IMG/VR virus record: IMGVR_UViG_3300023179_000011
Coordinates: 62,001 to 126,000 of that record
Origin: a virus
Length of the DNA: 64,000 bases
Reading direction: 5' to 3' (one strand)
Translations under genes and position numbers: made by a program
Notes under the pieces: generated by a model
What the model was told of the DNA's origin: nothing
Seen by the model: the letters and a program-made list of their open reading frames with translations, nothing else
The model's database searches: none
Shown: positions 8,361 through 10,543 of the stretch, one piece after another
How positions within the stretch are numbered: position 1 is the stretch's first letter
Layout: each line of letters opens with the position of its first letter

Positions 8361-8813
8361 TTACCTGCCGTCTGTTTCGCAATAGATTACAAATGTGCAG
8401 CCGCACTGTTGCGCAAGTTTTACGACGTTTGGCGCGTACACAGAGACGATTTTTGTTTTGTCTATTTTGTTATCAGCGATTAACGCCAAAAGACCCAGCT
8501 TTGCAATTCCGCGTCGCCGGTATTCGGGGTCTACAAAACACTCGACTGTTTGTACAACTGTCGGGCGGCCTTTGAAATTTTCGGTCCACGGGCGCGTTCC
8601 AACCCAGCCGGCTAGTGTTTCGTCTACCCAGATAAGCGCAAGCGCCATTTCTGGATGCGGCTGCGCGTGATTGACGTGCAGATAACGCTTAGCGAGTTCT
8701 TTTTGAATTGAGCTGTCGCTGCCAGAATCGGGCCACGACAATCTTGTCATGATTGCCGTCACATCGACCAGACCCAGCCGGTTGATGTCTTTGATTTTGA
8801 TAACAAATTCCAT
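8361..8813 (-). CDS. GNAT-family N-acetyltransferase
   Basis: A 150-residue protein from the ATG at 8813, preceded by GGAGG at seven-base spacing. It has the GNAT fold signature: a central strand TVECFVDPEYRRRGIAKLGL, where R-R-R-G-I-A is the acetyl-CoA pyrophosphate-binding Q/R-x-x-G-x-A motif, preceded by ALALIWVDETLAGWVGTRPW, and a final strand CTFVIY. Substrate unknown; it could acetylate a host protein or a small molecule. A TATACT box 27 bases upstream follows the RNA genes, suggesting its own promoter. Confidence 0.8.
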   Translation of the reverse strand: MEFVIKIKDINRLGLVDVTAIMTRLSWPDSGSDSSIQKELAKRYLHVNHAQPHPEMALALIWVDETLAGWVGTRPWTENFKGRPTVVQTVECFVDPEYRRRGIAKLGLLALIADNKIDKTKIVSVYAPNVVKLAQQCGCTFVIYCETDGR

Positions 8814-8839
8814 GGCAGGTCCTCCGTGACCAACCATGG

Positions 8840-8845
8840 AGTATA
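8840..8845 (-). promoter_or_regulatory. Candidate -10 box (TATACT) for the acetyltransferase gene
   Basis: TATACT on the minus strand, 27 bases upstream of the GNAT start and eight bases downstream of the end of the tRNA-like RNA. The same hexamer occurs in two other intergenic spots (4491 and 55971) at a similar distance from a well-supported start. No consensus -35 is visible, so a host sigma-70 promoter is not certain. Confidence 0.35.
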
Positions 8846-8852
8846 CATTAGC

Positions 8853-9055
8853 GCGGTAGGCGGGAGTCGAACCCGCTGCAGTAGATTTTCGGCCCGTCCG
8901 TCATTTCGGCAATTAAGTATGCGCACTTTTGCACACCGGAGATCAGTCCGGCGGTAAATCACTCGCTCGCATACACCGGCTTCGTCCGCTCAGGTGATCA
9001 ACCCATATCCGTCTACTGCATCAAGCGTTAAGCGCGCGCCCCGCGCATCTACCGC
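8853..9055 (-). ncRNA. 203-nt tRNA-like structured RNA of unknown class
   Basis: The two ends pair as a seven-base acceptor stem (9049-9055 with 8853-8859). A perfect T-arm (8860-8876: GCGGG, TTCGACT, CCCGC) lies beside it. Directly next to the T-arm a nine-base helix joins 9012-9020 with 8877-8885, enclosing about 126 bases that contain a seven-base helix (8968-8974 with 8917-8923) and a five-base hairpin (8936-8951). No canonical anticodon arm is found. The layout of acceptor, T-arm and long helix closing an insert recalls tmRNA, but it is too short, has no G3-U70 pair, and I see no tag ending in AA-stop. No CCA is encoded. Confidence 0.6.
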
Positions 9056-9060
9056 AAAGA

Positions 9061-9130
9061 GCCCCCAGAAGGAATCAAACCCTCATCGGCTGATTACAAA
9101 TCAGCTGCATTATCATTATGCTATGGGGGC
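9061..9130 (-). tRNA. tRNA-Thr (anticodon TGT)
   Basis: A full cloverleaf of 70 bases read on the minus strand: acceptor GCCCCCA/TGGGGGC, D-stem GCAT/ATGC, anticodon stem GCTGA/TCAGC with loop TTTGTAA (anticodon TGT, 9096-9098), a four-base variable loop, and T-stem GAGGG/CCTTC with loop TTTGATT. CCA is not encoded. Its first 15 bases overlap the last codons of the glycosylase-like gene, and the tRNA-like RNA begins six bases downstream, so both may be processed from one transcript. Confidence 0.88.
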
Positions 9131-9586
9131 AGTTATTAAACCCGCGGGCCAGTAGTATGGCAAATCGATTGGCTCCCGCCAACCGAACCGCGAATAGTGG
9201 CGAAAGTCTTTGCGCAATAAGTTGCTGCGATGACTGGCGTGAAACCGTGCGTCGCCAAACCAATGTGGGTAGCGATTGTGCTCTGTTTCGGGGCGGAGTT
9301 TGTGATAAACATCCATAAACTGCGCGAGAAGAGTGTCTTTAAAGCCGCGACGGCGCCACTCACGGCAGATCACAATTGCATAAACAGCGAGTTGTAATTC
9401 ATATCCCGCCCACATGCGGACTGCAGGATGATTGCGCCATCCGCGTTTGCCGGGTGTATGCTCACCTACTGAGACGCCTAAACATAGAAGCGTTTGTTTG
9501 CATTCAAGTCGTTGTTTTCCGGTTCTTCTATTATCAAGCACAGCCGCCGACGCGCGAAAACTCGGTAACGGCAAAAACGTGTTCAA
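9116..9586 (-). CDS. Pyrimidine-dimer DNA glycosylase-type protein (MSMEG_6728-like)
   Basis: A 156-residue protein with the family pattern NTFLPLPSF, AAVLDNRRTGKQRLECKQ, GWRNHPAVRMWAGYE, HWFGDARFHASHRSNLLRKD and FGWREPIDLPYYWP. This is the group annotated as pyrimidine dimer DNA glycosylase/endonuclease V-related; activity of this subgroup is uncertain. The start is taken as TTG at 9586, which overlaps the stop of the HNH gene as TTGA and places the protein start at the family's usual NTFLP position. The 3' end overlaps tRNA-Thr. Confidence 0.75.
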   Translation of the reverse strand: MNTFLPLPSFRASAAVLDNRRTGKQRLECKQTLLCLGVSVGEHTPGKRGWRNHPAVRMWAGYELQLAVYAIVICREWRRRGFKDTLLAQFMDVYHKLRPETEHNRYPHWFGDARFHASHRSNLLRKDFRHYSRFGWREPIDLPYYWPAGLITAPIA

Positions 9587-10236
9587 GTATTTTCTTTCTT
9601 TTTGTGCTCGTGTGGTATTTTGAGTCCGTGCGCTGCGATAAATGTTTCTAACTCTTTTATGCGCGCGACTAAATTGCGCCAGCATTTCATACGTAATAAA
9701 TTCTCACACTGCGTTACAATTTGCAGGTGGTCTGGATTAACGCAACGCGGGTTTCTACATACGTGATCTAGTTGTACGCCGGGCGGTAGCGGTCCGTTGA
9801 CGCGCGCCCACGAATAACGGTGCGCCATGTGTTTTTTTCCGCGCCACCAAAACTGCCCGTATCCTGCTTTTTTCTTTGCGCCACGACCAGAGCCGCGACC
9901 GTTTTTTATGAAATTCCAGCAACCGGTGTTTTGGTCAACGGCAAACGAGCGCAACCAGCGTTCGTCTTCTGTCTCGTCGTTAATAATTATTGATAAAAAT
10001 CCGCGACGATTATTTTGCGCCCAGTGAGTACTGCACAGATTTTTTGCGATCGGTTTTCGCGCGCAACCGGGAAATACACATGTCGTACCGTTTGCTCCTA
10101 GAGTAGCAATTTTTTTAAGCGGTACGCCGGCACGAAACTGATCGTAGTGGCGCTGACAAAGATTTGCGGCTTTTACTTTTCGCCCGCAGTCTGAAAACGA
10201 GCAAATTCGTTCTGTTATTTTTACGTTATTCGTCAT
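9583..10236 (-). CDS. HNH endonuclease with two N-terminal zinc modules
   Basis: A 217-residue protein from the ATG at 10236 (MTNNVKITERICSF). Two small zinc modules (Cys12, Cys17, Cys27, His30, and Cys53, Cys58, Cys68, His71) precede a linker and an HNH domain: KHMAHRYSWARVNG, VQLDHVCRNPRCVNPDHLQI (Asp157-His158, Cys160, Cys165, His170). This is the HNH_3 type found in phage homing endonucleases. The longer reading adds a Thr/Lys-rich leader that is the antisense-frame echo of the upstream acidic gene, so it is rejected. A free-standing homing enzyme is the likely role. Confidence 0.8.
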   Translation of the reverse strand: MTNNVKITERICSFSDCGRKVKAANLCQRHYDQFRAGVPLKKIATLGANGTTCVFPGCARKPIAKNLCSTHWAQNNRRGFLSIIINDETEDERWLRSFAVDQNTGCWNFIKNGRGSGRGAKKKAGYGQFWWRGKKHMAHRYSWARVNGPLPPGVQLDHVCRNPRCVNPDHLQIVTQCENLLRMKCWRNLVARIKELETFIAAHGLKIPHEHKKKENT

Positions 10237-10543
10237 CGTTGTCGTCGAAATCTTCTTCGTATTCGGGGTCGTCATCCTCTTCGTCCTCGTATTCTTCGTC
10301 CCAGTCTTCGTCGTCGTCACCCCATTCTTCGTCCTCGTCTTCCTCGTCGTCTTCTTCGTCATCGTCGTCCGTGAAAACGTAGTTTGGTTTTGAAAAATCG
10401 CTATCTTTGTCTTCGTCGTCGTTTTCTTCATCGTTTACGAACTGCCACTCTTCTTCAATAAAATCATCGTCTAATCCGTCGTCGTGGCGTGCGGCTTTCT
10501 CATCTCTGTGTCGACGAAACGAAGCAGGCTCAAAGTAGCGCAT
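10226..10543 (-). CDS. Very acidic low-complexity protein, 105 aa
   Basis: The ATG at 10543 follows the stop of the primase-like gene by two bases. The N-terminal 20 residues are basic (MRYFEPASFRRHRDEKAARH); from about residue 25 on the chain is almost only Asp and Glu with a few Trp, Tyr and Phe. Such tracts can mimic DNA or act as histone-like chaperones, but no family is recognised. It overlaps the HNH start by 11 bases. Confidence 0.6.
   Translation of the reverse strand: MRYFEPASFRRHRDEKAARHDDGLDDDFIEEEWQFVNDEENDDEDKDSDFSKPNYVFTDDDDEEDDEEDEDEEWGDDDEDWDEEYEDEEDDDPEYEEDFDDNDDE

Follow-up and report, generated by a model that had tools for sequence, protein, structure and literature searches.

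What kind of RNA is encoded by a 203-nt element of a large phage genome whose ends look like those of a tRNA and whose interior does not? The original prediction held that it is neither a normal tRNA nor a normal tmRNA and offered three options: a new tRNA-like RNA, a reduced tmRNA, or a tRNA carrying a compact insertion. The headline held in every test run; the first option is the one that we favour, and the other two fared poorly. The stretch of DNA analysed (the window, 64,000 nucleotides) comprises bases 62001-126000 of a 199,845-bp virus record, and the gene lies at window 8853-9055 on the minus strand. The RNA runs from 9055 to 8853, and RNA position i corresponds to window 9056-i.

Layout and surroundings of the element

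Read 5' to 3', the RNA is GCGGUAG AU GCGC-GGGGCGC-GCGC UUAACGCUUGA UGCAGUAGA (126 nt) UCUACUGCA GCGGG-UUCGACU-CCCGC CUACCGC (Table 1). The 7-bp acceptor stem (P1) and the T-arm are perfect, as had been described, and the 9-bp helix abutting the T-arm, here P2, was said to enclose about 126 nt and encloses exactly that number. The nested helices of 7 bp (P3) and 5 bp (CCGGA/UCCGG, in h2) are also present. The strand and the D-arm are additions to the earlier description; the latter has a GCGC/GCGC stem at RNA 10-13/21-24 and a 7-nt loop, and is conserved. As in tmRNA, P2 occupies the site of the anticodon stem, and the insert lies within it. The linker before it measures 11-12 nt among the copies described below, and 0-1 nt separate it from the T-arm. 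CCA is not encoded at the 3' end, and the same is true of the neighbouring tRNA-Thr and of the phage's own tmRNA.

Table 1. Window positions of the RNA's parts and of its two neighbouring genes.
Feature	Position	Strand	Remarks
tRNA-Thr (UGU)	9059..9130	(-)	3 nt upstream of the 203-nt RNA; ARAGORN; RF00005 64.9 bits
P1 acceptor stem, 5' strand GCGGUAG (RNA 1-7)	9049..9055	(-)	7 bp in every member; double compensatory change in 4/7 pairs
D-arm GCGC-GGGGCGC-GCGC (RNA 10-24), invariant AU before it	9032..9046	(-)	pair 10-24 changes from G-C to A-U; remaining pairs invariant
11-nt linker UUAACGCUUGA (RNA 25-35)	9021..9031	(-)	nearly invariant in alignments
P2, 5' strand UGCAGUAGA (RNA 36-44)	9012..9020	(-)	4/9 pairs compensatory; first pair lost in L020 and L294
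Hairpin h1 UGGG-UUGAUCA-CCUG (RNA 51-65)	8991..9005	(-)	present in all; sole variation U-G to C-G
Conserved core CCUGAGCGGACGAAGC (RNA 62-77)	8979..8994	(-)	1 variable base across three lineages
P3, 5' strand GUAUGCG (RNA 82-88)	8968..8974	(-)	4/7 pairs compensatory
Hairpin h2 CCGGA-CUGAUC-UCCGG (RNA 105-120)	8936..8951	(-)	stem differs by lineage yet pairs; loop always YUGAUY
P3, 3' strand CGCAUAC (RNA 133-139)	8917..8923	(-)	pairs with GUAUGCG
Hairpin h3 CCG-AAAUGA-CGG (RNA 147-158)	8898..8909	(-)	middle pair compensatory, C-G/U-A
P2, 3' strand UCUACUGCA (RNA 171-179)	8877..8885	(-)	abuts T-arm; pairs with UGCAGUAGA
T-arm GCGGG-UUCGACU-CCCGC (RNA 180-196)	8860..8876	(-)	canonical T-loop; pair 182-194 changes from G-C to C-G
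P1 acceptor stem, 3' strand CUACCGC (RNA 197-203)	8853..8859	(-)	pairs with GCGGUAG
GNAT acetyltransferase gene	8361..8837	(-)	downstream neighbour, outside the RNA; PF00583 E=1.2e-7

Two ordinary tRNAs do not explain the region: ARAGORN and Rfam call a single one, tRNA-Thr, which lies outside the element. No sigma-70-like promoter was found near the RNA gene, a result that is consistent with co-transcription and is not proof of it. A terminase gene is located 2.3 kb away. Beside tRNA-Thr, the ORF of a free-standing HNH endonuclease overlaps the beginning of a gene resembling pyrimidine-dimer glycosylase (window 9583-10431 and 9116-9685); at the matching place in the relative L020, described below, no HNH ORF was seen.

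In a chance control that kept 339 real T-arms and shuffled the upstream 300 nt, there were 0.7 cases per pass, or about 0.2% per T-arm, in which a 7-bp acceptor occurred together with a helix of 7 bp or more directly adjoining the T-arm, shuffle counts not being probabilities. The thermodynamic z-score of the element is -1.5, weak taken alone. The decisive evidence for a real RNA is comparative, namely the compensatory changes between divergent homologues.

Homologues, covariation and loss

Relatives of the phage, of about 200 kb, were located in IMG/VR through neighbouring genes. L002 carries a near-identical copy (99.5%) and L020 a divergent intact one (about 69.5% identical, repeated in L021), both in tandem with tRNA-Thr; in these two records and in the window the RNA directly follows that gene. 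A further divergent intact copy, in L294 (a 120-kb record), is about 69% identical and 186 nt long, and lies behind tRNA-Thr with an 80-aa ORF between. It was found by the covariance model R1 (137 bits, E=6e-37), which had been built from the window, L002 and L020; since L294 was outside this training set, its recovery independently bears out the predicted structure. The retrained model R2 was run over further records, bringing the phage records searched whole to 148 distinct ones. Among these, four hold intact copies, and R1 and R2 found no further intact members. Other covariance-model matches scored at most 25 bits, and those examined were ordinary tRNAs or tmRNA ends. DNA similarity searches of named phages and plasmids with the window element, L020 and L294 retrieved only ordinary tRNA-Thr, and pattern scans of IMG/VR and GTDB genomes gave, beyond the known copies, only chance matches, each read individually.

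The helices proposed from a single sequence do covary in related phages. In a four-row alignment, which was fitted to the R1 structure and somewhat favours it, 98.1% of cells are paired and 15 of the 39 pairs show double compensatory changes; moving the partners by 1-3 columns left 0-1 such pairs. The compensatory pairs fall in six of the seven helices (acceptor 4, D-arm 1, P2 4, P3 4, h3 1, T-arm 1). A structure-free MAFFT alignment of the window, L002 and L020 gave 12 compensatory pairs, already seen between the window and L020 alone, and RNAalifold, unprompted, recovered P1, D, P2, P3, h3 and T and favoured an alternative pairing at h1. The covariation rests on three independent intact sequences, and the invariant helices (most of D, and h1) are uninformative. 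An alternative fold pairing the acceptor 5' strand with the P2 3' strand (GCGGUAGAU/AUCUACUGC; window 9047-9055 and 8878-8886) has 9 bp with one G-U; this pairing is possible in the window copy and impossible in L020, and was rejected. Judged from this pattern of sequence change, the element is a structured RNA that has been kept by compensatory evolution in phages and that fits no known family.

The constraint is unevenly spread. In the scaffold it is limited to the T-arm, the D-arm and pairing: acceptor pairs 1, 2, 3 and 5 vary in their bases and remain paired. The invariant bases are concentrated in the linker and the insert, that is, in UUAACGCUUGA and in CCUGA-N-CGGACGAAGC. The linker could form a hypothetical pseudoknot, GCUU with AAGC (RNA 74-77) and UUAA with RNA 140-143, for which covariation is uninformative as the bases are invariant. 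The stem of h2 is CCGGA, GCAG or UUGC according to lineage. In all four copies the h1 and h2 loops can pair through GAUC over at least 5 bp, with a G-U needed in L020 and L294; among trials with shuffled inserts, 2.6%, 0.8% and 1.9% yielded such an h2 hairpin. This loop pairing was noticed post hoc among related sequences and is only suggestive.

The same palindromic GAUC loops raise the question of whether the insert could assemble copies of the RNA into dimers or larger RNA-only particles. Precedent comes from GOLLD and ROOL, which are also phage noncoding RNAs encoded near tRNA genes and also use kissing loops (PMC12286853). However, those RNAs are much larger, have another fold and lack tRNA-like ends, and neither has an Rfam match in the window at gathering cut-offs or in the element up to E=10. 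The loop pairing found in every copy would serve self-assembly, but it can equally form within one molecule, and in L020 and L294 it depends on the G-U; we regard self-assembly as improbable.

A fifth locus, L022:4512-4601, holds a shortened and apparently decaying remnant with a drifted T-loop. It looks like the product of a deletion between two UUAA stretches, by which P2 5', h1, P3 and h2 would have been lost. A phylogeny of 40 terminases places the four carriers and the remnant together in a single 17-row clade (support 97/81). Carriers and non-carriers interleave there; among the latter, L282 and L217 have terminases that share 96-97% identity with that of the window. Because the carriers are interleaved and share the locus, the sequences suggest one old gain followed by repeated loss, with some exchange between phages possible. 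The phage lineage itself is remote from named phages, its best terminase match being at about 30% identity. That most relatives lack the RNA, and that L022 keeps a mere deletion remnant, could mean that the gene is a decaying relic without function in its carrier. A relic would, however, gather unmatched mutations, as L022 has, whereas the helices of the window, L020 and L294 have been kept by compensatory changes; covariation, as read from the alignments, already contradicts decay for the three intact lineages, and we hold it to be very improbable.

Altogether, the comparison establishes a gene with a conserved fold that phages carry as an optional, accessory one; core roles such as packaging are therefore unlikely. 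A link to packaging through the nearby terminase was rejected, the RNA being absent from phages with a 96-97% identical terminase.

Comparison with tRNA, tmRNA and other tRNA-like RNAs

The element has the acceptor stem, D-arm and T-arm of a tRNA, all conserved with compensation. Default ARAGORN, with or without introns, calls no tRNA on it, and RF00005 does not match. An ordinary tRNA was rejected: the anticodon arm is absent, and a normal one could not be accommodated given P2 and the lengths at the junction. Could the insert instead be excised, as an atypical intron or insertion, so that a functional tRNA results? The tRNA-like arms and the tRNA context would agree with this, and at lowered thresholds ARAGORN can be forced to fit an intron; the forced fits are Pro-UGG, Ser-UGA and Arg-CCU in three homologues, with differing intron limits, and so disagree with one another. 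Rfam finds neither a group I nor a group II intron in the element, nor any other self-splicing intron or ribozyme, and the insert is only 126 nt. Together with the P2 and junction lengths, which exclude a normal anticodon arm, these results make a spliced tRNA quite unlikely. More generally, Rfam searches of the element at gathering and lax thresholds returned only a T-arm fragment and chance-level matches.

The closest known layout is that of tmRNA (RF00023), which shares the 7-bp acceptor, the T-arm and a P2 at the anticodon-stem place around a structured insert, and which likewise has no anticodon. The 203-nt RNA differs in lacking G3-U70, the tmRNA D-region and a tag frame, in having a stable 4-bp D-stem, and in its length (about 200 versus about 350 nt). 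At the third acceptor position, the window, L002 and L020 have a G-C pair and L294 has A-U; G-U does not occur in any of them, in line with what had been noted for the window copy. RF00023 matches the element in the T-arm only, at 13.8 bits against a 47-bit cut-off, and gives no match on the other members up to E=1. The absence of a recognisable tag was also borne out, no protein reading frame being conserved across the three lineages.

In favour of a reduced tmRNA that still functions, its tag being short or unusual, one can cite the position of P2 and a single ARAGORN call: at an 80% threshold, L294 alone is called a permuted tmRNA, with the tag ADHLNGRSVGASPVA. But the frame of this tag is open in L020 through the T-arm and acceptor without a stop and reads VDHLSGRSRCMRASDLPPD in the window, no member has G3-U70, and the RF00023 score stays far below its cut-off. 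A real tmRNA is moreover encoded in the same genome, outside the window, at record position 181274-181630 (G000:C1, L127); it was found by Rfam (149.5 bits) and missed by ARAGORN, and by our own reading of the sequence it appears to carry the tag frame GNTLAIAA-stop. We find a reduced tmRNA hardly credible. Many relatives also encode a tmRNA; the tags differ among them, and the gene lies in a similar tRNA cluster. The T-arm of the 203-nt RNA is one base apart from that of the phage tmRNA and near the bacterial tmRNA consensus. Kinship between the two RNAs was considered and rejected, as they share no D-region.

The main rival to the scaffold reading set out below is a decoy of the tmRNA tRNA-like domain, or of tRNA, in which the elbow and P2 would act as a mimic, titrating SmpB, EF-Tu, a defence nuclease that cuts tRNA, or some other host factor that binds tRNA. 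In favour of a decoy, the acceptor, T-arm and P2 are laid out as in tmRNA, without a tag, and the gene is accessory and often lost. The TLD-only tmRNA of mycobacteriophage DS6A, which likewise comes from a phage, has tRNA-like ends and lacks a tag, has been reported to inhibit endogenous tmRNA, and this molecule or a similar one does so strongly (PMC4131195, PMC11915505). The DS6A RNA is, however, described as little more than the TLD, whereas ours has a 126-nt insert that holds the best-conserved unpaired bases and would be superfluous for a simple elbow decoy. The tmRNA D-region and G3-U70 are absent, and blocked trans-translation would harm the phage's own full tmRNA. No SmpB gene is present in the phages, though the host may supply one. 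On balance, we consider a decoy rather unlikely, if a serious contender.

Bacterial Y RNA (YrlA, with Ro60) is another noncoding RNA with a tRNA-like module. The layout of the 203-nt RNA differs from it, there is no Rfam match, and the Ro60/TROVE gene (PF05731) is absent from the carrier and its relatives (0 of 10 phage records).

A proposed natural tRNA scaffold with a conserved payload

The reading that we favour, with moderate confidence, is that the element represents a new phage noncoding RNA family: a natural tRNA scaffold (acceptor, D and T arms) with tRNA-like processing and a conserved payload. The RNA would be transcribed together with tRNA-Thr, cut at the 5' end by RNase P and at the 3' end by tRNA 3'-processing enzymes, and completed by the host with CCA, a step that we infer because no CCA is encoded. 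Such processing would release a discrete RNA of about 203 nt that is predicted to be stable and exonuclease-resistant. tRNA end-processing enzymes read a paired acceptor, a canonical T-arm and a D-stem, while aminoacylation identity normally fixes acceptor bases. That the acceptor drifts in sequence and keeps its pairing is, as far as sequence comparison can tell, more readily explained by a role in processing and stability than by aminoacylation identity. Engineered tRNA scaffolds, in which an insert replaces the anticodon arm, undergo processing in E. coli and are stable there (PMC3753655); they share with our RNA the retained acceptor, D- and T-arms and the structured insert. Those scaffolds are man-made, whereas the phage RNA was apparently built by evolution, and its junction is different, with an 11-nt linker before P2. 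This four-way junction departs from the normal tRNA core and may make the RNA a poor RNase P substrate.

At the anticodon-stem position, P2 would bear the working part, consisting of P3, h1, h2, h3 and the near-invariant CCUGA-N-CGGACGAAGC, and the h1 and h2 loops might form a kissing pair through GAUC, either intramolecularly or between two molecules. As a guess, the probable role of the payload is accessory, for instance in counter-defence or translation control, through binding to some factor of the host or the phage. A search for a partner protein restricted to the carriers found none and gave weak shadow-ORF signals only. No antisense targets of at least 13 nt were found in the phage's own genome, apart from matches to the T-arm and one isolated 13-mer in G079.

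A locus in another phage record recalls this layout. L309:2217-2382, in a 340-kb record (G142), spans 166 nt and combines a 7-bp acceptor and a canonical T-arm, which an 8-bp helix abuts, with a long insert; a 7-bp hairpin occupies the place of the anticodon. No tRNA is called there, the fold z-score is -2.7, and a TTGACA/TATAAT-like promoter lies just upstream. By its sequence this is possibly a second, apparently unrelated tRNA-scaffold RNA, the generic scan giving about 0.7 chance matches per pass. Extra hairpin-forming inserts in the anticodon arm were seen in two phage tRNA genes, L309:1501-1603 (RF00005 62 bits over 103 nt) and L158 at about 8800-8955 (uncalled by ARAGORN). We suggest, tentatively and with low confidence, that phages hold an unrecognised class of RNAs in which tRNA ends serve as a processing and stability cassette for unrelated payloads, here a kissing-loop domain for anti-host action or RNA assembly.

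The family described here is absent from Rfam 15 and invisible to ARAGORN and to the Rfam tRNA and tmRNA models, and the tRNA islands of other large phages may hide similar overlooked RNAs. A small RNA of about 200 nt with a clear invariant core offers a handle on a new host-phage interaction. If the scaffold reading is true, it would mean that evolution uses the tRNA end-module beyond decoding or trans-translation.
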